The notes beneath the pieces were generated by a model. That model had not been told where the DNA came from. It was given only the letters and a program-made list of their open reading frames with translations, and made no database searches. From Hyphomonas sp. Mor2 (GTDB lineage Bacteria; Pseudomonadota; Alphaproteobacteria; Caulobacterales; Hyphomonadaceae), in NCBI RefSeq assembly GCF_001854405.1, contig NZ_CP017718.1:868001-932000 (forward strand): a stretch of DNA of 64,000 nucleotides, given 5' to 3'. The translations under genes were made by a program, and so were the position numbers. Each line of letters starts with the position of its first letter. The stretch's first letter is position 1. Below, in pieces: positions 48,910 to 61,145 of the stretch.

Positions 48910-49638
48910 TTGTTCAGCTCAGAGAAAACACCTTCCAAGTCGGCCGTTCTTTACGCGATCGGAGACGTGCATGGCGAAGCTTCTCGATTACGCAGATTGC
49001 ACAGTCTGATCGAAGAACGACATGACATATTGTATGGCGGACGCAAGAAGCGGCTGATCCATCTGGGTGATTATGTTGATCGAGGCAGCGACAGCGCAGG
49101 CGTGATCGAGTCGCTGATAAAGGCGCAAGACCGAATGGGGCGTGACTGCGTTTGCCTGCAAGGCAACCACGAAGCCATGATGCTGAATGGCTTGCAAGCG
49201 ACCGGTCCGACGGATTACGAGACTTGGTTGATGAATGGCGGCGAGGAGACCGTAGCGAGCTATCGCCTGTCCGGGGCCTATCCGATACCGAAATCGCATA
49301 TCAAATGGCTCAAAGCGCTTCCCAAGATTCATGTCGAGTCTGATGACAAACTGATATTCGTCCATGCCGGTATAAACCCGGTCGAGTTTCCGGATGAGCG
49401 CGAGGAAGTTTATTTATGGACTCGGTCGCCACAATTCTTCGATGTCGCCGGCTGGCGGAATTCAACGCTGGATGGATGGACGGTGGTGCACGGACACACG
49501 CCCACAGACGACTTCTACCCGGACCAGATTCAGGCGCGTTCGAAGCGTATCAACATTGATACAGGTGCCGTTTTCGGGGGGCGCCTGACCGCTGCTATCT
49601 TTGATGGCGAAGCGCCGGTGAGTTTCATCTACGCCTAG
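48910..49638 (+). CDS. PPP-family metallophosphatase (protein phosphatase-like)
   Basis: A 242-residue calcineurin-like phosphatase with all PPP motifs: AIGDVHG, HLGDYVDRG, LQGNHE, VHAG and VVHGHTP. This set is shared by bacterial Ser/Thr protein phosphatases (PrpA/PrpB) and symmetrical diadenosine tetraphosphatases. The frame starts with TTG at 48910; the true start is uncertain by a few codons because the first motif lies near residue 17. Its stop overlaps by 4 nt with the convergent Ser/Thr kinase gene, so dephosphorylation of that kinase's targets is an attractive guess. Confidence 0.85.
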   Translation: MFSSEKTPSKSAVLYAIGDVHGEASRLRRLHSLIEERHDILYGGRKKRLIHLGDYVDRGSDSAGVIESLIKAQDRMGRDCVCLQGNHEAMMLNGLQATGPTDYETWLMNGGEETVASYRLSGAYPIPKSHIKWLKALPKIHVESDDKLIFVHAGINPVEFPDEREEVYLWTRSPQFFDVAGWRNSTLDGWTVVHGHTPTDDFYPDQIQARSKRINIDTGAVFGGRLTAAIFDGEAPVSFIYA

Positions 49639-52028
49639 TCGGTGCGACAGCCATATTCCGCCTGGCGTGCGGCGACTTCGGGAATCCAGACTTCTTGTTC
49701 GAGTTCGGTCAACGTATCTCCCTCCAGAAGCGCGCCCAGTTCGGCGGAAGACAGGGCGAGCGCGTCGCAAGCCCGCGTGTTCTGATTGGCTTTCTGGAAG
49801 ACGATGGCGGCGGTTTTCAGCGAGCCAGCATAATCGCGGCGATGACCGAGCGTGTCGGGGAAGTCGGCGATGACGCTGCGGCGAATCTCGAGGGCCTCTT
49901 CGGTTGCAGAGAGGGCTTTGGCAGCGTCCCCAAACTCGATCTCCACGCGCCCCAACATTTCCAACTGAGTCGCGACATAGCCTCGGCCTGAGGCATCCCT
50001 TGGGTCGCCATCACGCAGGGTTTCGGCAATCTCGACCGCTTCTCGACCGCGTGCGAGCGCTTCGGGACCGTTCTCGAGTTGCAGTTGCGCCATCACCAAT
50101 GGCCCGAGCGCGGTCATCTTCTGCAGGTTGTAATAGTAAGCAGAAGTGTCCGACGCGAGGATCGTATCGTAATTGGCAATTGCAAACTCCAGAGGCTCGA
50201 CCGCCTGCGCCCATTGCTGAGTATCTGAATAGGCCTCCCCCTCGAGCCGCGCAAAATAGGCCATTCGGGAGTTTCGGCGCTGTGGCGCCTCATCATATGT
50301 GCTTGCCGCCAGTTCTTGGCGGAAGCGTTTTGCGTCGGCGATGGCGGTCTCATAATCATTTTCGTACATGAGGATTTTCACGCGATCGGTCCGCGAATTC
50401 CAAAGCCTGAAATAGAGGCGCGTGTCTTCAGCCCCGGGCAGGCTCATCCCGCGTGCAATCAAGGCCAGGCCTTCTTCATTGGTCTTTCGGGCCGACGCGA
50501 CATCCAGTTGATAGGTCAGCTCCTGGTTCGCCTTGAGCCGTTTTACCCAGGCCATTTCATCGATCGCGGCAACCGAATCGGGTGTGCGCGCGAGCAAGCT
50601 ATCCAGCGCCTCCTCGGCTTGTAACAAAAGGCTGTAGGACGTTTCGGTGTCGCCGAAATTTGCGACACCAAGCCCACCATACAAATCGGAGAGGCGCGTG
50701 TTCTGAATCGCAATGTCGAGGAGAACATCGTCCGGGGCGTTGGGGTCGGTGGCCAATTCCTCGACATAGTCTTTGACGATCCCGGCCAGGTTTTGACGCG
50801 CTTCCAATGTGCCTGGAATTTGCTCGATAGCATCATAGACATCGATGATCACAGTTTTGCTGAGCGAGCGGGCCTGCTCAAATCGGGCATTGGCGCCCGC
50901 GAGCGCCGTTTCTGCGCGGTTATATTGGTACGAGGTGACTGCCAGCGCGCCAGCGAGCCCCATGAATGCAACTACACCGACGGAAACCGCCATTGAGTTG
51001 CGGCGTAGGAATTTGGCGAAGCGATATCCGGACCCGTTGCCGCGGGCGTCGACAGGGTAGCCCGAGCGTTGGTTGCCGAGATCTTCTATCAAGGCATCAA
51101 CCGAAGGGTAGCGATCCCCTGGCGCGGTCGCGGCGGCTTTAGCAATGATCGCCGCCAGGTCGGCGTCTGGGCTCTGACGCTGAAGCAGGGACTCGAGCAG
51201 TTTGCCGAGTGAGTAGACATCCGAGAGTGTGTTGGAGGGCGCGCCTTCGGCCCGTTCGGGGGCACCATAGCCAGGCGTAAAGCTCAACGATGCCAATGAC
51301 TTGCTGTCCGAGTTGGCATGTTCTGCGAGCAAGTCTTCATCTGCCTGCGGCTTGGCGATGCCGAAATCGATCAGTTTCACGGTGCCCGCCTGAGTGACGA
51401 GGACATTGGAAGGGGTGAGGTCGCGATGCACGATCAGGTTCTGGTGGGCATGTCTGACCGCGGCGCAGACGTCTCGAAATATCCAGACGCGATCTGCCGT
51501 GTCCAAATCACGCTCATCCGCCCAATCGGTAATTGGCATTCCGTCAACGAACTCCATGACGAAATAGGGCGAACCGTCCTCCAGCGCGCCGCCATCCAGC
51601 AATCGGGCAATATTCGGGTGGGTCAGGTCGGCAAGGATCTGTCGCTCGCGCTCAAACCGCGCAATCAAACTGTCGCTGAGCACGCCAGGACGAATGACTT
51701 TGATCGCCGCCGTTTGCTCAAAATCCCCGGTATCACGCTCCCCGCGATAGACGGCGCCCATGCCGCCTCGGCCGATTAGGTCGCCGATTTTGTACGATCC
51801 GGCGCGTTCGGGGGCAGGCGTTTCTCCGAGGTCCTGGTTGGCGCCGCCAGTGCGTAGGACTCGGCCAGCGGACCCGTCGGCATTCAGCAGGGATACAACC
51901 CGTTCGTACAGGGCTGTGTCCGAGCCCGTTTGCGCTTTTAACCAAGCGATGCGATCGCTGCTCGCTTGTTCGAATGCCTCAGATACGAGCGCCAGCGCGC
52001 GTTGTTCCAATGCATCAGCCTCTGACAT
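49635..52028 (-). CDS. Ser/Thr protein kinase with transmembrane segment and TPR-like periplasmic tail
   Basis: A 797-residue Hanks-type kinase. Residues 1-60 form the helical leader common in kinases coupled to ECF43 sigma factors; the kinase domain spans about 79-320 with GRGGMGAVYRG, Lys110, HRDLTPSN (Asp203) and DFGIA (221-225). The Lys usually found in HRDLK is Thr204. One span at about 346-366 is followed by a long helical region with TPR-like repeats, predicted to be periplasmic and to sense a signal. It overlaps the sigma factor gene by 14 nt and probably phosphorylates it. Confidence 0.9.
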   Translation of the reverse strand: MSEADALEQRALALVSEAFEQASSDRIAWLKAQTGSDTALYERVVSLLNADGSAGRVLRTGGANQDLGETPAPERAGSYKIGDLIGRGGMGAVYRGERDTGDFEQTAAIKVIRPGVLSDSLIARFERERQILADLTHPNIARLLDGGALEDGSPYFVMEFVDGMPITDWADERDLDTADRVWIFRDVCAAVRHAHQNLIVHRDLTPSNVLVTQAGTVKLIDFGIAKPQADEDLLAEHANSDSKSLASLSFTPGYGAPERAEGAPSNTLSDVYSLGKLLESLLQRQSPDADLAAIIAKAAATAPGDRYPSVDALIEDLGNQRSGYPVDARGNGSGYRFAKFLRRNSMAVSVGVVAFMGLAGALAVTSYQYNRAETALAGANARFEQARSLSKTVIIDVYDAIEQIPGTLEARQNLAGIVKDYVEELATDPNAPDDVLLDIAIQNTRLSDLYGGLGVANFGDTETSYSLLLQAEEALDSLLARTPDSVAAIDEMAWVKRLKANQELTYQLDVASARKTNEEGLALIARGMSLPGAEDTRLYFRLWNSRTDRVKILMYENDYETAIADAKRFRQELAASTYDEAPQRRNSRMAYFARLEGEAYSDTQQWAQAVEPLEFAIANYDTILASDTSAYYYNLQKMTALGPLVMAQLQLENGPEALARGREAVEIAETLRDGDPRDASGRGYVATQLEMLGRVEIEFGDAAKALSATEEALEIRRSVIADFPDTLGHRRDYAGSLKTAAIVFQKANQNTRACDALALSSAELGALLEGDTLTELEQEVWIPEVAARQAEYGCRTD

Positions 52029-52587
52029 CTTGCCCCTCCTTCATTGCATCCAGGAGCCAGGCACGTGCGACACGCCATTGGCGTTTCACCGTCGACTCCG
52101 ATGTGCCCACAACCTCTGATATCTCCGGCAGGCTCATGCCGCCAAAGTATCGAAGCTCGACGATGCCGGCTTTGTCCGCATCGATGACTGCCAGCCGGAT
52201 CAGGGCTTTTTCAAGCAGATCAATGTCCAGTCTTTGCTCGACGCCTTCCAGCCGGGTCACCAGAGTCACCTTGTGGTGGTGTCGCTTGTCCGACTTCTTC
52301 TTCCGCGCATGATCGATGAGCACCCGCCGCATGGCGCGGGCGGAAAGCGCGAGGAAATGACTCTTGTCGACCCAGTCTATTTGATCCAGGCGGATCAGAC
52401 GCAATGTGGCTTCATTGACGAGGTCGCCAGTGGACAGAGAATTGTTGCTTTCGGCACGTAGCAGTGCTGCTGAAACTTGCCGAAGCTCACTGTAAAGCAG
52501 CGCGAATAGCTGATCACGTGCGTTTGTGTCGCCCGATCTCCAGGCTTTCAAGAGTGCTTTGGAATCCGTTTCGCTCACATTTTTCAT
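52015..52587 (-). CDS. ECF sigma factor (ECF43-like)
   Basis: A 190-residue sigma factor with regions 2 (about residues 15-85, DLVNEATLRLIRL) and 4 (about 130-182, VELRYFGGMSLPEISEVVG and STVKRQWRVARAWL). It belongs to the group annotated as TIGR02999-like/ECF43, whose members (EcfP of Vibrio parahaemolyticus, EcfK of Xanthomonas citri) are activated by Thr phosphorylation in region 2 by the adjacent kinase. Thr61 takes the place of the usual aromatic residue in region 2.2 and is a candidate site. The following kinase gene overlaps it by 14 nt. Confidence 0.88.
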   Translation of the reverse strand: MKNVSETDSKALLKAWRSGDTNARDQLFALLYSELRQVSAALLRAESNNSLSTGDLVNEATLRLIRLDQIDWVDKSHFLALSARAMRRVLIDHARKKKSDKRHHHKVTLVTRLEGVEQRLDIDLLEKALIRLAVIDADKAGIVELRYFGGMSLPEISEVVGTSESTVKRQWRVARAWLLDAMKEGQDVRG

Positions 52588-52645: not shown

Positions 52646-52762
52646 TCCTGGGTGGCGATATTTAGACGCTGACCCGGTTATCCTCATTCTTGCGCCTACT
52701 CAGATATGGCCCGCTGTTCTGATGGCGTGCCGCATATGAAATCGAGGCGAAAGGTCGATCAA

Positions 52763-53209
52763 ATGAGACACGCACTAACGCTCTTCCCGCTGCTACTGGT
52801 ACCGGTCCTGGTCTATAATCTGATCGCAATATTTGGCGGCGGGGGAGGGGACGCCGCGATTTCGCCGGCGCTGTCCAGTCTGGATAGTAGCCTGATCCGA
52901 ATGCCGATGATCTCAGGCGTGCGCTGGGAGTTCAGCGTCGGCGACGGCGTGCTGTTCCTCGGCTTCGTGATGCTCTTCATCGAAGTCATCAAAGCCACCA
53001 GCACGCGATCGACGGCGATCATGAACCATGCGGCCTCCATGTTCGTGCTGATGTTCTGCGTGTTCGAGTTCCTTCTGTTCAAGAGCTTCGCCACGTCCGA
53101 ATTCTTCATGCTGACCATGATGTGTTTCCTGGATGTCCTCGCGGGCGCCATGGTCACCATCGTTTCGGCACGCCGTGACTTCGGAGTTGGCGACGGATTT
53201 TCCGGATAA
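52763..53209 (+). CDS. Four-span membrane protein, unrecognised
   Basis: A 148-residue protein with four hydrophobic segments (about residues 4-24, 54-74, 85-105 and 112-132) and a glycine-rich loop after the first. This ATG has AAAGG 8 nt upstream; earlier in-frame starts at 52706 and 52736 would add polar residues. First gene of the zinc-ribbon/kinase operon. No family recognised. Confidence 0.7.
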   Translation: MRHALTLFPLLLVPVLVYNLIAIFGGGGGDAAISPALSSLDSSLIRMPMISGVRWEFSVGDGVLFLGFVMLFIEVIKATSTRSTAIMNHAASMFVLMFCVFEFLLFKSFATSEFFMLTMMCFLDVLAGAMVTIVSARRDFGVGDGFSG

Positions 53210-53293
53210 GCCGCGGGGCCAGAAAATTTCTTTGACCCGATCCCCCGCAACTCTGCGCCTTCCCCAATAGACGGGTAATTTGAGGACAACACC

Positions 53294-53845
53294 ATGCCGG
53301 AGACTTTGAACCAGATCCCACCTGAAGCGTGGCCACTGATCGACTTGCTGTTCAACATCACAATGGTGACCGTAGCGGTCTGGCTCGCGATTACTGTCTT
53401 TGTCTGGTGGCGCCGGAGCGCCTCCAATCTGACGCCGGTCAATGCCGGCAGCAAGAACAAGGACGCGCAACCCGATTTTCTCTCAGTTGATAACAAGGCG
53501 CGCGCCGAAGCCATCGAGCGCGGTGAGACATTCGACAAGGAAATCGAGCGACGGGAACGTGAAGAAGCCCGCGCCGCCGCCCGGGCGCATCGGCCAAGAC
53601 CAACCCTGAGCCAGAAACTGGCGCGCTTTGTCAGCTTCTTCATGTCGCTGTTCACGCTCGCGACCATGATATTTGGGGCGATTTTCCAGGTGACCCGCAT
53701 GGGCGACATGATGCGCGAATACTCCACCACGGAGCGCATCCTCACGGTGATCCAGAACCACCCGATCTCGTTCTCTGTCGCGGGGCTCGTGATCCTGTTC
53801 CAGATTTATCGCTTTTACGTAGACCGCAATTGGCAGGAGGGCTGA
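53294..53845 (+). CDS. Three-span membrane protein with charged central loop, unrecognised
   Basis: A 183-residue protein: span 1 at about residues 18-40, a highly charged helix (ERREREEARAAARAHRP) at about 75-105, then two spans at about 110-130 and 157-175. GAGGA lies 7 nt before the ATG. It is separated by only 3 nt from the SPFH gene, and the charged loop on one face of the membrane could be a docking site for it. No family recognised. Confidence 0.72.
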   Translation: MPETLNQIPPEAWPLIDLLFNITMVTVAVWLAITVFVWWRRSASNLTPVNAGSKNKDAQPDFLSVDNKARAEAIERGETFDKEIERREREEARAAARAHRPRPTLSQKLARFVSFFMSLFTLATMIFGAIFQVTRMGDMMREYSTTERILTVIQNHPISFSVAGLVILFQIYRFYVDRNWQEG

Positions 53846-53848
53846 TCC

Positions 53849-55516
53849 ATGGCCTCGGAACCACTCGTACTTACTGATCCCAATCTTCTTGCAGAATTTG
53901 TCCGCGAGAGTGAATTCAAGGGCTTCTTCGAAAAGCGTTTTGCGACGCCGCCGGATCTTGCTGCTCTCCTGTTTCGCAATGGCGAACTGATCGACACGTT
54001 CAAGGGTGCGCATTTCTCTGTCGGTGGCCTGGCCACGGCTGTGAAAAGTGTCGTCGGCGGGTCCACGCATATCGCGCTGATGCTCGCGGACCTGAAGCCT
54101 TTCTCGGTGCAATTCCCAGTCAAGGCCATGTCGAAGGACAGTGTCGAAGTTGCCGGCGTGGCAACGCTCGAGCTCCAGCTCAATCCTGACCGACCCGCCA
54201 ACATTCTCGGTTTGATGGGCGGGGTTTCTCGCCAGCAAACGGATGAAGGGACGGGCGATATTCCGGCCACCGGCAAGAATGCCCTGACGCGCTCTGACGT
54301 GGTCGAACGGATTGCACCGCACTTCAATGATCGCGTCTTCGAGGCGGCGATTGGCAGCGTCAATGCCGATGAGATCCGCGGTGAAACGGGTCTGCAGGAC
54401 AAGATTCAAGCTGACTTGATGACCGAAGCAGAGCGCATTTGCGGTGATCTTGGCGTCATGGTGCGGTCGGCGAGCGTGACCTGGGCAATGAATGCGGTCG
54501 AACGCGAGGCCTTTGAGCGTGCACAAGTTGCACGTCAACAAGAAGCCCTCGATTACGAGCTCGAATTGCTCACACGCGAAGTCGATCGCCAATCTGAAGC
54601 GACCCGTATCAAGGTCGCGTCGACTGTTGATCTCGCGAAGCTGGAAAATGCCAGCGAAGATGAACTGGCGCAGATGGTGCTGAAGAGCGAAGTCGAATTC
54701 CTCGACGCGCGCGAAGCGGCCACCCGCCGTCAGGAAATGGAAGCGCTCGCGCATGAGATCGAAGTGCTGCGCACAGAGCGGGCCGCCAAGATGGAGGGTC
54801 AACTCGCTGAGGCGACCCATCTTACTGATCTCACCAAGGAAGCTGCGCGGTTGCGGACAACGGAACGCGACATCGAGCTGCTGGATGCGAAACATATCGC
54901 GAAGATGAAAGAGGTTGGTGCGTTTTCCGATCAGGATATCGATGATCGTAAACAACGCATGGACCTCGAGATCAGCAAGATCGCAGCCAAACAATCGGCG
55001 GACAATTTGCGAACCCTGATGGAGTTGGAGCAAGGCGTCGAGGACAAGATCGCAGCGCGGGACATCAAGAAAGCGGATGCCGCTTCAGCCAACAAGATTG
55101 CTGAAGGGAAAGCGGACGCGGACAGCCGCGTGGCACAGCTGCAAGCGGGGGCCAAAATGACGCCGGAGCAGATCATGGCGATCAATGCGGGCCTGTCTCC
55201 AGATGTCGCGGATGTTCTCAAGGAACAAGCGCGCGCCAATGCAAAAGCTGGCGAGGACACAATGGAGTCTATGCGAGAGCTGATCAAAGGCGCTGCGGAA
55301 GAACGCGCGGCGAGCCGTGAGCATGAGCTAAACATCCTCAAGGCCGGGATGGCCGGGGCAAGTGGCGTCGCGCACGGCGCCGGTGGCAAAGAGAGCAGCG
55401 GTTCAAGCGATGACCTGGGTGAAACACCAACCATGGTGGATTGCCCCAAATGCGGTCGATCGCTGCCTGCCAAAGCCAATTTCTGCACTGGCTGCGGTCA
55501 CAAGATGCGGACCTGA
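53849..55516 (+). CDS. SPFH/band-7-like protein with coiled coil and C-terminal zinc ribbon
   Basis: A 555-residue protein. Residues ~20-215 look like an SPFH-type domain (FRNGELIDTFKGAHFSV, FPVKAMSKDSVEVAGVATLEL). Residues ~220-430 are predicted long helices rich in Glu/Ala/Lys, and residues 532-549 form a zinc ribbon with Cys532, Cys535, Cys546 and Cys549. No transmembrane segment is seen. The layout recalls Bacillus YdjI and related virion-core-like proteins of membrane-stress (PspA-linked) operons. It may form a ring or scaffold at the membrane with the two preceding small membrane proteins. Confidence 0.75.
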   Translation: MASEPLVLTDPNLLAEFVRESEFKGFFEKRFATPPDLAALLFRNGELIDTFKGAHFSVGGLATAVKSVVGGSTHIALMLADLKPFSVQFPVKAMSKDSVEVAGVATLELQLNPDRPANILGLMGGVSRQQTDEGTGDIPATGKNALTRSDVVERIAPHFNDRVFEAAIGSVNADEIRGETGLQDKIQADLMTEAERICGDLGVMVRSASVTWAMNAVEREAFERAQVARQQEALDYELELLTREVDRQSEATRIKVASTVDLAKLENASEDELAQMVLKSEVEFLDAREAATRRQEMEALAHEIEVLRTERAAKMEGQLAEATHLTDLTKEAARLRTTERDIELLDAKHIAKMKEVGAFSDQDIDDRKQRMDLEISKIAAKQSADNLRTLMELEQGVEDKIAARDIKKADAASANKIAEGKADADSRVAQLQAGAKMTPEQIMAINAGLSPDVADVLKEQARANAKAGEDTMESMRELIKGAAEERAASREHELNILKAGMAGASGVAHGAGGKESSGSSDDLGETPTMVDCPKCGRSLPAKANFCTGCGHKMRT

Positions 55517-55518
55517 TC

Positions 55519-56679
55519 ATGCCGCAAGCGAGCGCCCCTCCCCATATGCCGCGCCGGACTCAGAAAGAGTGCTGCTACACCTCCGCGGTAGATGCAGACG
55601 CAACCTATTGCGGGGATTGCGGGAAACCGCTGATCCGGTGCATGGCGGCGGAAGAGTGTGGCGGGTTATTGGATGATGAGGGATTGTGCACGGTCTGTGT
55701 GTCGCCGCATGTCCAGGTGGATTCCGGCGCTCTGAAAGTCGCCAAGGTCGGCGGCGCGGTCGCGCTGCCCGTTTCGATCGCCAATGTGTCCGTGGTCGGA
55801 CGCCCAATCTTCGTGACGCGCATCTGGAGCCGCGAAGCATCGGGCGAATGGCGAACCGAGAGTCTCGGTTGGGAACGCCTCGACGCCGGACAGACTCGGC
55901 CGGTCTCGATTACGGCCCGAAACCTCGATCGCGCGGGCGCCCATAATATTGAAGTCCTGGTGGAAGTCGCCAGCCGGTGGCGCTGGCGCGAAGAGCGCTA
56001 CGCGTTTGCGGCTTCGTTGCGGCTCCACGTCAAGGCGGAAGACAAGTCCGTCGGGCCGACCGTGACGGTGGGGGGTACAGAAGCGGGCCACGGCAACACC
56101 GTCTATATCTCGGGCAAGACCGAGACGTCCGCTGAACTGGAAACCACCGCCGAAGCACTCCACCTGGTCATGGAGCGCGTAGAGGTGGAAGAGCGCCGCC
56201 TCGGTATTCGCGGAATCAGCAAGGACCTCGCCGTCTCGCGCGGCGTGTCCGTGCAATGGCGCGGGTTCGCGCCGGAACACGTCCCAAGCGACGGCCCAAT
56301 TCTGACAGCAGACAGTCTGCTTTCGGTGGGCCGCGCGCGCGGGCGACAAGCGGGCGGAACAGGGGACGTCCGCCTGCTTGTCGAATCCCAGGACGGGACG
56401 CTGGATGAGGATCTCAGCCGGCTGATCTCGCGGCGTCATTTCGAGCTTTATATCGAATGTGATCGTTTGATGCTGCGGGTCACCGGGAGTGGCGGCCTTC
56501 GCGTCGATGGCGACGCGTTCGGTCCGGGGAAGGTGGTCGCCTTGAACGATGGCGCGCGGATCAGTCCGGTGGTCAAGGCGCCTGATGCGCTCTCGCTCCG
56601 GGTCCAGTTTCACGCGGAACACAAAACAGTCACCCAGGTCACCGTCACACGGTCACCTGCCAGAGGACAAGGAACCTAG
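55519..56679 (+). CDS. Zinc-ribbon / beta-domain / FHA protein
   Basis: A 386-residue cytoplasmic protein. Residues 18-60 hold eight cysteines (18, 19, 31, 34, 41, 47, 57, 60), consistent with a double zinc ribbon; ~65-175 look like a beta-sandwich; ~262-365 form an FHA domain with SVGR (269-272) and the phosphothreonine-binding SRRH (304-307). FHA domains bind phosphorylated Thr, so the kinase encoded next is a likely partner. The frame opens at 55441 inside the SPFH gene, but the ATG at 55519, 2 nt after that stop, fits the cysteine domain. Confidence 0.78.
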   Translation: MPQASAPPHMPRRTQKECCYTSAVDADATYCGDCGKPLIRCMAAEECGGLLDDEGLCTVCVSPHVQVDSGALKVAKVGGAVALPVSIANVSVVGRPIFVTRIWSREASGEWRTESLGWERLDAGQTRPVSITARNLDRAGAHNIEVLVEVASRWRWREERYAFAASLRLHVKAEDKSVGPTVTVGGTEAGHGNTVYISGKTETSAELETTAEALHLVMERVEVEERRLGIRGISKDLAVSRGVSVQWRGFAPEHVPSDGPILTADSLLSVGRARGRQAGGTGDVRLLVESQDGTLDEDLSRLISRRHFELYIECDRLMLRVTGSGGLRVDGDAFGPGKVVALNDGARISPVVKAPDALSLRVQFHAEHKTVTQVTVTRSPARGQGT

Positions 56680-56682
56680 GCC

Positions 56683-58275
56683 ATGGCTCATTGCGGAAAT
56701 TGCGGCGCAAAGGTCGATGCAGACGCCAAATTCTGTCCCGATTGCGGACACCAGCTGGATGCCCCTGCTGCAGAGGTGGTGGAAAGCACGATGATGACGG
56801 TGGGCGGGCTGGAAACGCTCGCAGACGCCCCGACACAGGATGACCGTTCAAGCTCAGCCGCGGTCCTTGAGGCAGGCACTCAGTTCGCCGATCGCTACAC
56901 AATCGAAGAAATTGTCGGACGGGGCGGCATGGGCGTCGTCTATCGCGCAACCGACAAATTGAGTGAGAAGACAGTGGCGCTCAAACTGATCCGGCCGGAA
57001 CGCCTGTCCGGGACCAATGCGATCAAGAAACTGATCGCTGAGGGAATTACCGCGCGCGATATTCGCCACCCAAATATCGTCGCGGTTTATGATGTCGGCG
57101 AGTCAGACGGACAGCCCTTTGTCTCGATGGAATATCTCGGCGGGCAGTCGCTGCGGGCCTGGCATCGCCAGAAGACCCAGGATCGGGAAGACATCAGTCT
57201 GATCGTGGCCTGCCGGATCATTGCCGAGACGCTGAAAGGATTGAGCGCCGCCCATGAGGCCGGCGTGATTCACCGCGATCTCAAGCCCGAGAACATCGTT
57301 CTGACCGGCGAACCCACAGATGAAGCAGCGCCTTTGAAGATTCTCGATTTCGGGATCGCGCGGGCGACCGGTGGCGCACAGGATAGTGGGACGGGAACCG
57401 GGACCGGGTTGGGCACGCCCCTATACATGGCGCCGGAGCAGATCACCAATCCCGATAGTGCGGGTCCCGCAGCTGATTTCTATTCCCTGTCGGTCATGTT
57501 TTACGAGTTACTCATGGATGTGGTCCCGCAAGGACACTGGCAGCCACCATCGGGCGGTCGCTCAGATGTGCCAACCGGCATCGACGCCTTGATAGAACGG
57601 GGCTTGTCGAACCGGCCCGCCAATCGACCGCAAACAGCCAAGGACTATCTCGAAGCACTGGAGCTCGCCTTCGCTGGACGCGATATGAATTTCAACAAAC
57701 CCAGTGGACCGACGAGTGACATTCCGGTCGCGAAAATTCTCAAATGGTCAGGGGTCGCGCTGGGCGGCGTCCTGGCGCTCGGCGTCATCGGCATGATGAT
57801 TCCGGATGATGGCGGTATGACCGACCCGTGTGACGGATTGTTCGGCCAAGAGCGTGCCCTTTGCTTGGGAGAGGTGTGGGACGATCCGGTTCCTGACCCG
57901 ATACCGAGGCCTGGGCCAGATCCAGATCCTGTTCCCGACCCGCGGCTGCCGACCCTGGCGGACCTTTCTGGCCAGTGGAATGATGGCCTTGGCACAACCT
58001 ATTCGATGCGGGTGCGTTCGAATGGGCAGTTCTCTGGCTCCGGCCGCAGCGCCGATGGTTACAATCTGCAGATCTCGGGCTCTTTCTCCGGGGCCAACGG
58101 CTCCTACACTTTGCAGGCACCTGAACTTGGTCTGACGTTTCAGGGGCGCCTGGTCTGGGATCGCAATTGCCACATCAATTTCCAGACGCTCGATCCGTTC
58201 AGCGGCGTGGTTCTCGAACAGGGACAGATGCATGTGAACCATGCGCCCGGTGGTCCGTGTCCGGTGTTGCGATGA
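56683..58275 (+). CDS. Zinc-ribbon Ser/Thr protein kinase with one span and a beta-rich tail
   Basis: A 530-residue kinase. A zinc ribbon (Cys4, Cys7, Cys18, Cys21) comes first. The kinase domain spans about 72-330: GRGGMGVVYRA, Lys101, HRDLKPEN (Asp199), DFGIA (222-226) and APE (250-252), all intact. A single span lies at about 353-373, then a Pro/Asp linker (~400-422) and a small beta-rich domain (428-530) predicted to be periplasmic. The last domain resembles the end of the protein at 60549-61145. It lies 3 nt after the FHA gene. Confidence 0.88.
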   Translation: MAHCGNCGAKVDADAKFCPDCGHQLDAPAAEVVESTMMTVGGLETLADAPTQDDRSSSAAVLEAGTQFADRYTIEEIVGRGGMGVVYRATDKLSEKTVALKLIRPERLSGTNAIKKLIAEGITARDIRHPNIVAVYDVGESDGQPFVSMEYLGGQSLRAWHRQKTQDREDISLIVACRIIAETLKGLSAAHEAGVIHRDLKPENIVLTGEPTDEAAPLKILDFGIARATGGAQDSGTGTGTGLGTPLYMAPEQITNPDSAGPAADFYSLSVMFYELLMDVVPQGHWQPPSGGRSDVPTGIDALIERGLSNRPANRPQTAKDYLEALELAFAGRDMNFNKPSGPTSDIPVAKILKWSGVALGGVLALGVIGMMIPDDGGMTDPCDGLFGQERALCLGEVWDDPVPDPIPRPGPDPDPVPDPRLPTLADLSGQWNDGLGTTYSMRVRSNGQFSGSGRSADGYNLQISGSFSGANGSYTLQAPELGLTFQGRLVWDRNCHINFQTLDPFSGVVLEQGQMHVNHAPGGPCPVLR

Positions 58276-58305
58276 ACGCGCCAATTCATACCCGGAGGTC
58301 TTGCC

Positions 58306-59382
58306 ATGTCCGAATGCTATAACTGCAAGTCACCCTTGCCCGTCTTCTCGTACATTTGCGGCATTTGCGGCGCAAACAATACGCCGGTCGGCGCTGACCT
58401 CACCCCCGTAGACCTTAGTGATGGAGGACCCAACATGTCCGACAAGTGGAGCGAATACAGTCTTAACGGGTGTCTATTTGAAGACGCCCCCAAACCTTCG
58501 CCCATGCTGGGCGCGCCATCAGCTGATCTGCCGCAACGAATTGATCTGCGTATGCATTGCCCACCGGTCGAGAGCCAGTTGACGACCAATTCCTGCGTGG
58601 CCAATGCGGTGGTCAGCGCGCTGGAAATTCATCAGAAGAAGGTAGGCCTGCCGCTCACGGACATGTCGCGTCTGTTCGTCTATTACAATGCGCGTTCATT
58701 GGCCGGGAATCAGATGCAGGATACGGGCAGTCTGATCCATCACGGCATGGCCGCGGTGTTGGCATATGGCGCCTGCGAAGAGCGGCTATGGCCCTTCGAA
58801 CCGGCCATGGTCATGGCGCAACCACCGGCCAATTGCTACGAAAACGCGATGCAGTACGAGGCGGTGCAATACGCAAGAACACCGCGTGGTGCGCCGGCGC
58901 TTGCAGCTCTGGCACAAGGACTGCCTGTCGTGTTCGGCATGTCGGCACCGGCAGTCTATTTCGAAATCGCCGCGCAAACCGGTGCGATGCCACGTCCCGA
59001 TCAATTGCCGCCACAAGTCCAGCCACCGACCGGACATGCCATGATCATTGTCGGCTACGACCTGTCGGACAAGACCTATCTGGTGCGCAATAGCTGGGGC
59101 CCAATGTGGGCCGATCAGGGCTATTGTCGGATCCCGTTCGAGACCATGGATACCTGGGCACGGGCGGAAGAATTCTGGACCATCGGCGCCATCGAACAGG
59201 CCGAAGGGTTTGCACTCTCCGGACCAAGCATGATCGACGCCATGAAAGGCGTGGGCGTGTCACAAGCGACTCTCGACGCAGCCGCATCGGGGCTCGGCCG
59301 CCTGAAAGGTGATTTGCGCGCCCGCCTGTCCAGTGACCTGGAAACCGCCAAGCGCGATTTCAAGAAACGCCTGCGGGACTAG
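58306..59382 (+). CDS. Papain-like (C1A) cysteine protease with N-terminal zinc ribbon
   Basis: A 358-residue protein. Residues 4-21 form a zinc ribbon (Cys4, Cys7, Cys18, Cys21). The protease domain (~75-300) has Gln91, catalytic Cys97 in TTNSCVANAVV, His244 in GHAMIIVGYD and Asn262 in VRNSWGPMWADQGYC, the full papain triad and oxyanion Gln. No signal peptide or pro-domain is seen, so it is predicted to be cytoplasmic. A GGAGG 7 nt before the ATG supports this start; a second equally good one precedes in-frame Met44. The C-terminus is a polar helix. Targets may be operon partners. Confidence 0.85.
   Translation: MSECYNCKSPLPVFSYICGICGANNTPVGADLTPVDLSDGGPNMSDKWSEYSLNGCLFEDAPKPSPMLGAPSADLPQRIDLRMHCPPVESQLTTNSCVANAVVSALEIHQKKVGLPLTDMSRLFVYYNARSLAGNQMQDTGSLIHHGMAAVLAYGACEERLWPFEPAMVMAQPPANCYENAMQYEAVQYARTPRGAPALAALAQGLPVVFGMSAPAVYFEIAAQTGAMPRPDQLPPQVQPPTGHAMIIVGYDLSDKTYLVRNSWGPMWADQGYCRIPFETMDTWARAEEFWTIGAIEQAEGFALSGPSMIDAMKGVGVSQATLDAAASGLGRLKGDLRARLSSDLETAKRDFKKRLRD
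58423..58437 (+). promoter_or_regulatory. Internal ribosome-binding site and second start in the protease gene
   Basis: GGAGG at 58423-58427, a 7-nt spacer and ATG at 58435 form a site as good as the main one. The ATG is in frame and corresponds to Met44, giving a 315-residue protease without the zinc ribbon. Two products from one gene are inferred. Confidence 0.5.
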
Positions 59383-59395
59383 GAAGGGGGGAGAA

Positions 59396-60487
59396 ATGAA
59401 ACGGGGACTCATTGAACTTGCGCTTTCGGCGCTGGCACTTGGCCTGTCCGGATGCGCTACCAGCTATGGCGCGAAGACGATCGTGCCGTCAGGCTATAAC
59501 TATAATACGGCGATCGCGGACTCGAAGGATCAGCAATTATTGCTCAATCTGGTTCGATTGAGATATCGCGACACTGTCGTGTTCATGAACATCACCAGTG
59601 TGACGACCCAGCATCAATACTCAGCCGGGCTGTCGGCGGAGAATGCCATCCCGTTTCGCCGCGCGAGTGATGGCGCCTCCGTGATCACGCCGAGCGCCGG
59701 ATATTCTGAGACTCCGACCATCTCGTACGCCCCGGTGACAGGCACGGAGTTCGCGACCAATCTGCTGTCGCCCATATCGGCAGAGACGATCGTGTTGCTG
59801 GCCAATTCCGGGTGGAGCATCGAGCGCTTGATGACCTGCTGCGTCGAGCGCCTGGGACGATTGTCGAACGCGCCGAGCGCGTCTGGCCCGACGCCGCCTG
59901 TCTTGCCGAACAATCAGGAATTTCGGCGCCTCGCCAGGTTGCTCCGCCAGCTTCAGATGGGCGAACAGGTTTATGTCGAGCAAGTCCCCGCCGATGATGG
60001 CGCCGAGCCTGAGACGCACCTGTCTGTGAATGCCGCCCCTGGACCAGAATGCGATGACCTCAAACATTTGCTCGGGATTGAGTCCTGCCAGGCGAAACTC
60101 AATCTGGTGGCTCGCGGCATGGCCGATGAAGACGCCGCGCTTCTGGCGCAAACGCGCACGGTTCTCGGCGCACTCTATAACTTGTCGCATGCGGTCAGTG
60201 TTCCGGCCGTGCATGAAGCTGAGGGGCTGGTGACAGACAGCCGGATTGAGTCCGGCGAGACATCGACCTGGCGCGCTTTTCTCGGTGAGCAGTTTCAGGT
60301 CAAAAATTCGAAACAGGAACCTGACCGAGCCTTCGTGAAAATCCAGTATCGAGATCACTGGTTCTGGATCGATGATAGCGACCTGGAATCCAAGACCACG
60401 TTCAATCTGATCCTGTTCCTACTCTCTCTGCAATCGGCGGCCAGCGAGGGTGCAACCCCGCTCCTGACGGTCAGCGCCTCCAGATAA
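59396..60487 (+). CDS. Lipoprotein of unknown family
   Basis: A 363-residue protein with a lipoprotein signal ending in LSGC (Cys20); Ala-Thr follow, so outer-membrane sorting is possible. The first mature part contains DSKDQQLLLNLVRLRYRDTV, a pattern I believe occurs in uncharacterised lipoproteins of many Gram-negatives, but I cannot name a family. GGGGGAG precedes the ATG; the longer frame opening at 59309 lies inside the protease gene. Four cysteines in the middle could form disulfides. It could be the envelope sensor of this operon. Confidence 0.75.
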   Translation: MKRGLIELALSALALGLSGCATSYGAKTIVPSGYNYNTAIADSKDQQLLLNLVRLRYRDTVVFMNITSVTTQHQYSAGLSAENAIPFRRASDGASVITPSAGYSETPTISYAPVTGTEFATNLLSPISAETIVLLANSGWSIERLMTCCVERLGRLSNAPSASGPTPPVLPNNQEFRRLARLLRQLQMGEQVYVEQVPADDGAEPETHLSVNAAPGPECDDLKHLLGIESCQAKLNLVARGMADEDAALLAQTRTVLGALYNLSHAVSVPAVHEAEGLVTDSRIESGETSTWRAFLGEQFQVKNSKQEPDRAFVKIQYRDHWFWIDDSDLESKTTFNLILFLLSLQSAASEGATPLLTVSASR

Positions 60488-60548
60488 CCCAGAGGTCTGG
60501 CCCGTTTTTCCGTCAGGCTACGCCTTTTACATTAGGAGGACCAATCCG

Positions 60549-61145
60549 ATGACAGATGACAAGTTCGATTCCTTGAGACAACGCGTAGAAGCGCGGCGAC
60601 TGGCAGCCTCTCGCAAACTGCAACAGACACTGGGCAAGTCGGGTTCGCTCGCCCAATCGAGTGCACCGCCGACGGCTGACACCCCTGTCGATCAGGTACG
60701 GTTGCAGGCCGCCAGTGCGCCGTTTCAAGGCGATGTGGAAACCGTTCCGATCGGAGCGCCGACCCCATATGGCGACGAACCAGCGGTTGCGGCCAAGCGG
60801 CCGGATGCGCCAACTGGCAGATGGCGCTGTATCGTGCACAGCAGCGTCGTATCCATCGACCTGATCGCAAACATCGCCGCCGATGGAAGCTTGTCCGGCC
60901 AAGGGACGATCATCTATGTGGCCACCAACCGGATCTATCAGGTTTCCGGCCAGGGGGACTGGACGGCCTTGCCGCCAGACCCGTCATCGCCGAACTGGTT
61001 GTTCAAGTTCAGACTACAGCCCTCCAATCATGCCATTTTCAGCTGGTTCGCCACCCCGACCAGCTCCCCAAATCACATGACCAACCGGTTCGTGGTGCCA
61101 AATAATGGCGGTGTCGTGGAAACCAATTGCGAGCGGATCGGCTGA
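60549..61145 (+). CDS. Small protein with beta-rich domain, unrecognised
   Basis: A 198-residue protein with a strong AGGAGGA ribosome-binding site 61 nt after the lipoprotein gene. Residues 1-30 form a charged helix, 31-88 are a low-complexity Ala/Pro/Gln linker and 89-198 a beta-rich domain starting with GRWRC and containing DGSLSGQG and QVSGQGDW. The pattern resembles the kinase tail (GQWN, NGQFSGSG, QISGSFS). No signal peptide is seen. Last gene of the operon. Confidence 0.65.
   Translation: MTDDKFDSLRQRVEARRLAASRKLQQTLGKSGSLAQSSAPPTADTPVDQVRLQAASAPFQGDVETVPIGAPTPYGDEPAVAAKRPDAPTGRWRCIVHSSVVSIDLIANIAADGSLSGQGTIIYVATNRIYQVSGQGDWTALPPDPSSPNWLFKFRLQPSNHAIFSWFATPTSSPNHMTNRFVVPNNGGVVETNCERIG

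Follow-up and report, generated by a model that had tools for sequence, protein, structure and literature searches.

Background

Proteins of the YdjI family have a C-terminal zinc ribbon, and sigma W is an extracytoplasmic function (ECF) sigma factor. In the pspA-ydjGHI operon of Bacillus subtilis, which is under sigma W, YdjI requires YdjG and YdjH for its place at the membrane (PMC8581546; what is said here of cited papers refers to the part of each text available to us). HflK/C assemblies control FtsH (PMC12048511), and SPFH assemblies can therefore govern a protease. EcfP/PknT and EcfK/PknS are pairs of an ECF sigma factor and a receptor kinase (PMC13147305, PMC8999054), and according to a review the ECF43 factor of Hyphomonas neptunium is activated in the same way (PMC8999054). 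Among the archaeal loci of the endosomal sorting complexes required for transport (ESCRT), Meth_adaptin loci encode a protein with SPFH, coiled-coil and zinc ribbon parts, and FHA, kinase and phosphatase proteins belong to other ESCRT loci (Halo_FHA) (PMC10936438). We analysed a stretch of 64,000 nucleotides (nt) from Hyphomonas sp. Mor2 (contig NZ_CP017718.1, positions 868,001 to 932,000), hereafter the window, in which eight plus-strand genes within positions 52763-61145, named A to H in order, include genes for an SPFH protein (C), an FHA protein (D), a Ser/Thr kinase (E) and a papain-like protease (F).

The core of this set is a real, conserved, multi-gene system with a promoter motif of its own, and it is apparently undescribed. 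Genes B, C, D and E, mostly together with F, form one inherited unit, a five-gene core B-F. An earlier note, made from the window's letters, had stated that no described system was known with this gene set, and none was found in the open-licence papers searched for the combination. PMC7159879 comes near to it and has SPFH only in a reference title, the words "papain" and "protease" are not in the text of PMC10936438, and neither paper, in the part available, describes this set.

A conserved five-gene unit

The earlier note had proposed to check whether these genes travel together, and they do. Among 150 related genomes, B, C and D are present all or none: the three genes occur in an identical set of 31 genomes, and 119 lack the set. 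Counted singly, B is found in 31 genomes, C in 32 (one of them, G057, with a 71-residue fragment) and D in 33 (two being FHA-only matches, at 2.1e-4 and 3.5e-4). The protease gene F goes along in 28 of the 31 operon genomes, at 1e-117 or better in 27 and split at a contig end in G043; F was not found in G040, where the operon is cut by a contig end. Weaker C1 protease matches lie elsewhere, and matches of any strength occur in 44 of the 150 genomes in all.

Gene order was compared in 34 loci (the window, L035, L036 and L038-L068), called with a simple open reading frame (ORF) caller; B of L050 and D of L035, which it overlooked, were detected by tblastn. The order B-C-D-E is kept in 30 of these loci, even though identity to the proteins of the window drops as low as 33-42%. 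In two of the four exceptions, L053 and L054, D lies beyond the sigma/kinase pair, next to A; the other two are a short contig (L063) and a fragment (L068). Evolutionary distances among B-F are correlated (r 0.69-0.89), as common descent would lead one to expect, and we do not count this as evidence.

As far as sampled, this is a lineage-restricted accessory system of the Hyphomonadaceae and near kin. C was detected in eight of 29 genomes of the window's genus (window counted), in 26 of 299 genomes of the order, and in one of 385 genomes of the class, which is the window's own. The 26 comprise 24 of the same family (window included), one of another family (G768) and one ribbon-only match (G813). 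At the level of the phylum, D was found in three of 388 genomes, one of them FHA-only. A search of GTDB contigs with a single C protein returned a Parvularculaceae metagenome-assembled genome (L035, with the same coordinates as G768), a Proteobacteria metagenome-assembled genome (L036) and Henriciella pelagia. No match to C was found in 72,556 plasmid and 50,697 phage records, and a plasmid or phage origin was rejected because no record holds C.

Layout of the locus

The features of the window that concern us are as follows.

48910..49635, plus strand: PPP-type (calcineurin-like) phosphatase (PF00149, 1.8e-15), accessory, convergent with the receptor kinase
49635..52028, minus strand: receptor-type Ser/Thr kinase (PF00069, 2.4e-33), kinase domain 79-287, transmembrane (TM) segment 346-364
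52015..52587, minus strand: ECF sigma factor, divergent from the operon (PF07638, 2.7e-36)
52670..52696, plus strand: ECF-type promoter motif TGACCC-N16-GCGCC, 93 nt before A
52763..53209, plus strand: A, four-TM protein of unknown family (hydropathy)
53233..53259, plus strand: ECF-type promoter motif TGACCC-N16-GCGCC, 61 nt before B
53294..53845, plus strand: B, three-TM protein with a charged loop (alignment and hydropathy), found in 31 of 150 genomes
53849..55516, plus strand: C, SPFH domain (divergent, about 33-235), then a long region that looks helical and a C4 zinc ribbon at the C-terminus (529-553); no TM segment
55519..56679, plus strand: D, double zinc ribbon with eight Cys at the N-terminus, FHA domain at the C-terminus, and between them a region whose fold is unknown
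56683..58275, plus strand: E, zinc ribbon, Ser/Thr kinase (72-284), TM segment (352-373), Pro-rich linker, outside domain ending CH...HVNH
58306..59382, plus strand: F, C1A papain-like protease, no TM segment by hydropathy, N-terminal zinc ribbon in some lineages only
59396..60487, plus strand: G, lipoprotein as judged by its N-terminus, accessory, not core
60549..61145, plus strand: H, orphan soluble protein, window only, not core

The coordinates bear out eight co-directional genes, with intergenic gaps of 84 nt (A-B), 3 (B-C), 2 (C-D), 3 (D-E), 30 (E-F), 13 (F-G) and 61 (G-H). A and B each carry a promoter motif and there are therefore probably two transcription units. The set as first described was also without the divergent ECF sigma factor, the receptor kinase and the PPP-type phosphatase. 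By hydropathy A has four TM segments, B three, E one, and C and F none; D has only a marginal peak (1.64 at 81-99).

Genes at the edges of the set are less constant (absence of A, G or H from a locus means no blastp match within the fetched 4-22 kb, not genome-wide). A was called in 19 of the 34 loci, G in three and H in the window only. The lipoprotein G had been proposed as the outside sensor; it fails as a core part because it is absent from 31 of the 34 loci. Distant relatives of G, at 24-34% identity, were seen in seven plasmid records of Variovorax, Methylomonas, Cupriavidus, Caballeronia and Sulfuricella. Kinases are duplicated in five loci (L061, L064-L067) and proteases in five (L055-L057, L061, L065). 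Eight of the 34 operon loci (window counted) have a homologue of the phosphatase, as do L100 and L106, two loci with the sigma gene but no operon.

The promoter motif and its sigma factor

Intergenic stretches were searched for the strict pattern TGAMCC-N16-RCGCC and for a relaxed version of it. The motif lies 58-64 nt before most B genes. The strict form precedes B in 22 of 32 loci, and its presence follows that of a linked sigma gene: 20 of 21 loci with a linked sigma gene have it, against 2 of 11 without. The two latter loci, L056 and L059, come from G019 and G043, which have sigma factors 77% and 74% identical elsewhere in the genome. The relaxed form raises the count to 23 of 32 by adding L058, whose genome (G035) has a 75% identical sigma factor elsewhere. 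L050, in which the ORF caller missed B, carries the motif as well, and no motif was found before B of L036. Among 256 control genes of the same loci the strict form precedes none and the relaxed form two. Genes C, E and F and the sigma genes are never preceded by the motif, and one of 22 receptor kinase genes has the relaxed form. Exact sites in the window's own genome number ten, compared with six for the reversed pattern; two are those listed above, seven fall within called ORFs, and the last is 24 nt upstream of an ORF.

Gene A, including A in remote positions, has the strict motif in 7 of 19 cases and the relaxed motif in 13. Five of the six A genes that have no relaxed match directly follow a gene of the system; in L036, the remaining case, A is truncated at the 3' end, and what can be read upstream of it contains no match. 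D is preceded by the motif in exactly two loci, those in which D has left the operon. One promoter motif is thus common to A, the B operon and relocated D, and A probably belongs to the same regulon as the B operon. The motif outlines a putative regulon, and D still carries it where it has relocated.

The sigma factor co-occurs with the operon. At E <= 1e-30 it was found in 37 of the 150 genomes, which are 30 of the 31 with the operon and 7 of the 119 without; the operon genome that lacks it, G034, is 82% complete. At 65% identity or more, 25 genomes have it, of which 23 have the operon and two (G077 and G110) do not. The divergent ECF sigma factor probably drives the operon. In 21 aligned sequences region 2.2 reads [STA]-[ST]-[GS]-D, with Ser or Thr two residues before the Asp in all 21.

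A homologue of the receptor kinase was called in 22 of the 34 loci. It adjoins the sigma gene in the window and in many other loci, and stands after F in L048-L052. We regard it as a putative activator of the ECF sigma factor. Its C-terminal part, in which TPR_12 is matched only at 0.022, is probably periplasmic and TPR-like. Genome G057 holds broken pieces of the sigma factor and the receptor kinase (L107, G057:C1) and of C on another contig (L068, G057:C29), with no B or D, a state consistent with joint decay of sigma factor, receptor kinase and operon.

Two loci with the sigma factor and no operon offered a side observation. In L101 (13133-13600 of the locus; genome G110, sigma factor 71% identical) a small secreted protein is encoded close to the sigma/kinase pair, and its gene is preceded by the motif. 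In L100 (6996-7457 of the locus; genome G077) a protein that begins in a similar way, QDY[NS][ND]W, is encoded near the sigma gene. The small secreted protein may be another target of the sigma factor. One more motif match, in L103, lies inside an ORF.

Protein families and conserved residues

The identification of C as an SPFH protein holds for the family, but the domain is weak and divergent. Two of ten N-terminal C fragments exceed the PF01145 (Band_7) cut-off of 23.6, at 28.6 and 24.0 bits over residues 33-235, and one of 33 full-length relatives matches Band_7 (1.9e-5) among the matches listed. The window copy has no Pfam SPFH match. As few relatives match Band_7 and the window copy does not, we describe C as SPFH but divergent. 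A C profile run against PDB sequences gave nothing meaningful beyond ribbons; matches to a WRAP repeat-protein (down to 7.9e-5) and to Rab were judged spurious.

The other three domain assignments were confirmed. For D, the FHA profile PF00498 matches 30 of 31 alignment members at E <= 0.1 (best 1.2e-8), with the window copy at 18.5 bits, under the cut-off of 20.7. Residues R272, S304 and R305 of the FHA domain are invariant, and matches of D in PDB were weak only, to Rad53 and other FHA proteins. TagH of the type VI secretion threonine phosphorylation pathway (TPP; TagH/PpkA) was considered and rejected (TIGR03354, 13.4 bits, cut-off 120.25). E is a Hanks kinase (Pkinase 147.7 bits, cut-off 31.7), with HRD in 36 and DFG in 36 of 38 aligned rows, one row being a lipoprotein. 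F is a C1A protease (Peptidase_C1 38.9 bits, cut-off 20.7), and the catalytic residues Q91, C97, H244 and N262 are invariant in all 33 rows. Since the HRD and DFG motifs and the Q/C/H/N set are kept, E and F look active from their sequences. The closest solved relative of F is PDB 3ois ("Cysteine protease", xylellain; 5e-52 with the F profile). Several F proteins of L055-L058 end in one or more GPGAGGGY units.

The architecture of E varies beyond the kinase domain. Where the zinc ribbon-kinase is duplicated in L061 (5879-7462) and L066 (6833-8413, minus strand), the first copy has DUF805 as its membrane domain instead of one TM segment and an outside domain; by eye, L062, L065 and L067 resemble these. 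In L051 (5808-6299, minus strand) the outside domain of E stands alone, as a small protein whose start is lipoprotein-like, and this supports an outside location of the C-terminal domain of E. Second matches to E are also seen in L048 and L049. No significant match was found between H and the outside domain of the kinase.

Of the two small membrane proteins, B is the constant one, with W30, R40, R41, T47, P60, D61, F62, D66 and R70 invariant in the alignment, and it is likely the membrane anchor of the complex. Matches of A to STING_TM and of B to MARVEL were taken as noise, and SepX/GlpR was not adopted for B (19.3 bits, cut-off 150).

Zinc ribbons

In the window the ribbons stand where the earlier note had placed them, at the C-terminus of C and the N-termini of D, E and F. 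Over the 34 loci, a loose terminal-ribbon pattern is present in 33 of 34 C proteins, 37 of 38 E rows (the remaining row is the small lipoprotein, which has no kinase) and 17 of 31 D proteins. None of 284 other ORFs of these loci has a terminal ribbon by either the loose or the strict pattern, and the ribbons of C and E therefore exceed chance. D has eight invariant Cys in all 31 aligned rows, though their spacing fits the loose pattern in 17.

The ribbon is conserved in C, D and E, and its being common to C and E is supported. The idea that a common ribbon would target all four proteins fails for F, whose ribbon is lineage-specific and present in only 6 of 34 F proteins. The C profile detects the ribbon of E in the window's own genome (4.7e-4), indicating that the two are related, and also finds kinase-side ribbons in G051 (9.8e-5) and G040 (2.8e-4). 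It matches ribbons unrelated to the system as well, in an unrelated frame of G026 (6.0e-4) and in G813 (9.6e-4); the ribbon family is therefore not confined to these genes. Compared by eye, the ribbon of D has the A-x-[FY]-C-x2-C-G pattern in common with the others.

Proposed function and alternatives

Our leading reading, put forward tentatively, is that B-F encode an inducible SPFH platform at the inner membrane that couples kinase/FHA signalling to a cytosolic cysteine protease, most likely in envelope stress management; this role is ranked first because of the receptor kinase/ECF control. By analogy with PknT/EcfP and PknS/EcfK, an envelope signal would act through the receptor kinase to activate the ECF sigma factor, which would transcribe A and B-F. 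The soluble SPFH protein C would oligomerise and be held at the inner membrane by B, as YdjG and YdjH hold YdjI. Kinase E, which is predicted to span the membrane, would read a second outside cue through its own C-terminal domain; the part of E beyond the TM helix is a better candidate for the outside part than lipoprotein G. The ribbons on C, D and E may gather these proteins, the FHA domain of D may bind E or proteins phosphorylated by E, and protease F would be held or released at the platform to cut a target marked by phosphorylation or membrane damage. A relay from kinase to FHA protein to protease, as the earlier note had imagined, would result.

A membrane platform fits the parts, since C has no TM segment, B is its constant membrane neighbour and E is membrane-bound. 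The latter is true of the forms examined: the window kinase has one TM segment and an outside domain, and the two duplicated kinases scanned have DUF805. A more specific version, which we consider doubtful, is a phosphorylation-gated SPFH dome that recruits the cytosolic papain-type protease through common zinc ribbons under two-layer control, in which the receptor kinase and ECF sigma factor make the machine and the zinc ribbon-kinase fires it.

Several observations weigh against an inducible platform of this kind. With respect to its control, the motif is assigned to the sigma factor by co-occurrence only, and the two control matches in 256 together with the one receptor kinase match in 22 amount to some background for the relaxed form. 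The motif is missing before B of L035 despite a linked sigma gene (58% identical), and throughout the clade L061-L067, whose genomes have sigma factors only 48-52% identical or, in G034, none. It is also missing from the fetched 20 kb of L100 (G077), where the sigma factor is 66% identical and there is no operon. The unlinked sigma genes of L103 and L104 (G035 and G043) have no neighbouring receptor kinase. Region 2.2 keeps its Asp, unlike the ECF43 consensus Q/S-T-T-A (aligned by eye), and for this reason we do not file the sigma factor as ECF43. With respect to the parts, comparison of hidden Markov models of C with Band_7 proteins of the window's own genome and with YdjI-type proteins gave 0.013 at best, which is not significant (the template sets were too small for a negative, and the YdjI-type L080 looks mis-read). 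The canonical Asn of the phosphothreonine pocket appears replaced in the FHA domain of D, and the ATP-binding Lys pattern of E is matched in 29 of 38 rows. Finally, G051 and G064 keep B-E, with two kinases each, and lack F at the locus, so that the protease is not strictly needed.

Defence against phages or predators, in which the kinase would sense attack and license the protease to kill or arrest the cell, is the role ranked second after envelope stress, and we think it unlikely. The patchy occurrence of C (8 of the 29 genomes from the genus), the duplicated kinases and proteases (five loci each) and variable kinase ends are what such a system might show, and the PknS/EcfK pair of Xanthomonas citri controls resistance to amoebae (PMC13147305). 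The surroundings of the operon speak otherwise. No defence island was seen: among 114 of 159 eligible flanking proteins scanned, five PADLOC models were matched at 1e-10, each by one or two members, and these (two Csa3 models, DrmC, SspA and DndA) were judged generic relatives. Judging by the 25 most frequent of 97 Pfam families, the flanking genes seem to be ordinary ones for metabolism and transport. Seven of the eight window proteins have no PADLOC match, and E matches kinase models. C is absent from the plasmid and phage records searched, and receptor kinase/ECF control would suit a graded stress response better.

Membrane repair or organisation in the manner of the Bacillus PspA-YdjGHI operon, with protease and FHA protein as secondary controls, seems rather improbable. 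C resembles YdjI in plan, a soluble SPFH protein with membrane partners in its operon (PMC8581546), and the two genomes with B-E and without F agree with a secondary protease. But no PspA was found among the window genes scanned (for other loci, the flanks were viewed through the same 25 families), and PF13421 (YdjI-type) is matched neither by the window C nor by the ten C fragments; the PF13421 match in the window's own genome is another gene, under the cut-off.

More improbable still is membrane-protein quality control, in which an SPFH oligomer would gate the protease as HflK/C does around FtsH. The union of SPFH protein and protease in one unit, and the control of FtsH by HflK/C assemblies (PMC12048511), argue for it, but F is papain-type and without an unfoldase, and there is no AAA domain in the eight window proteins. 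Assembly of unrelated neighbours by chance, which describes the appearance of G and H, is scarcely credible given the all-or-none occurrence, kept order and common motif, and is already refuted for B-E.

If the signalling-coupled SPFH platform is true, an SPFH platform, eukaryote-like phospho-signalling and a papain-family protease are joined in one small bacterial operon. It would open questions on terminal zinc ribbons as docking tags and on the membrane placement of a soluble SPFH oligomer, and one could ask whether an SPFH platform controls a protease other than FtsH.

Comparison with known systems

The described systems each resemble a part of this one. The eight window proteins contain neither a GTPase nor a vWA domain, in which they differ from the GTPase-centric GAP1-N2 systems of actinobacteria, and the window proteins scanned include neither ESCRT-III nor Vps4, in contrast to the archaeal ESCRT loci. 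For the protease, the likeness to the C1A enzyme of PDB 3ois is that of nearest solved structure. The ECF43 pairs are alike in having an ECF sigma factor beside a receptor kinase with an outside TPR part (the TPR being weakly seen here), whereas here region 2.2 reads [STA]-[ST]-[GS]-D and the presumed target operon is different. HflK/C-FtsH is alike in combining SPFH protein and protease as a functional unit; here a papain-type enzyme takes the place of the membrane AAA protease, C lacks TM segments, and a kinase/FHA layer is added. Compared with pspA-ydjGHI of Bacillus subtilis, this locus has no PspA, its C is without a PF13421 match, and it has a kinase, an FHA protein and a protease in addition; the two are alike in that a soluble SPFH protein is encoded together with the membrane proteins that recruit it, or in this case would do so.

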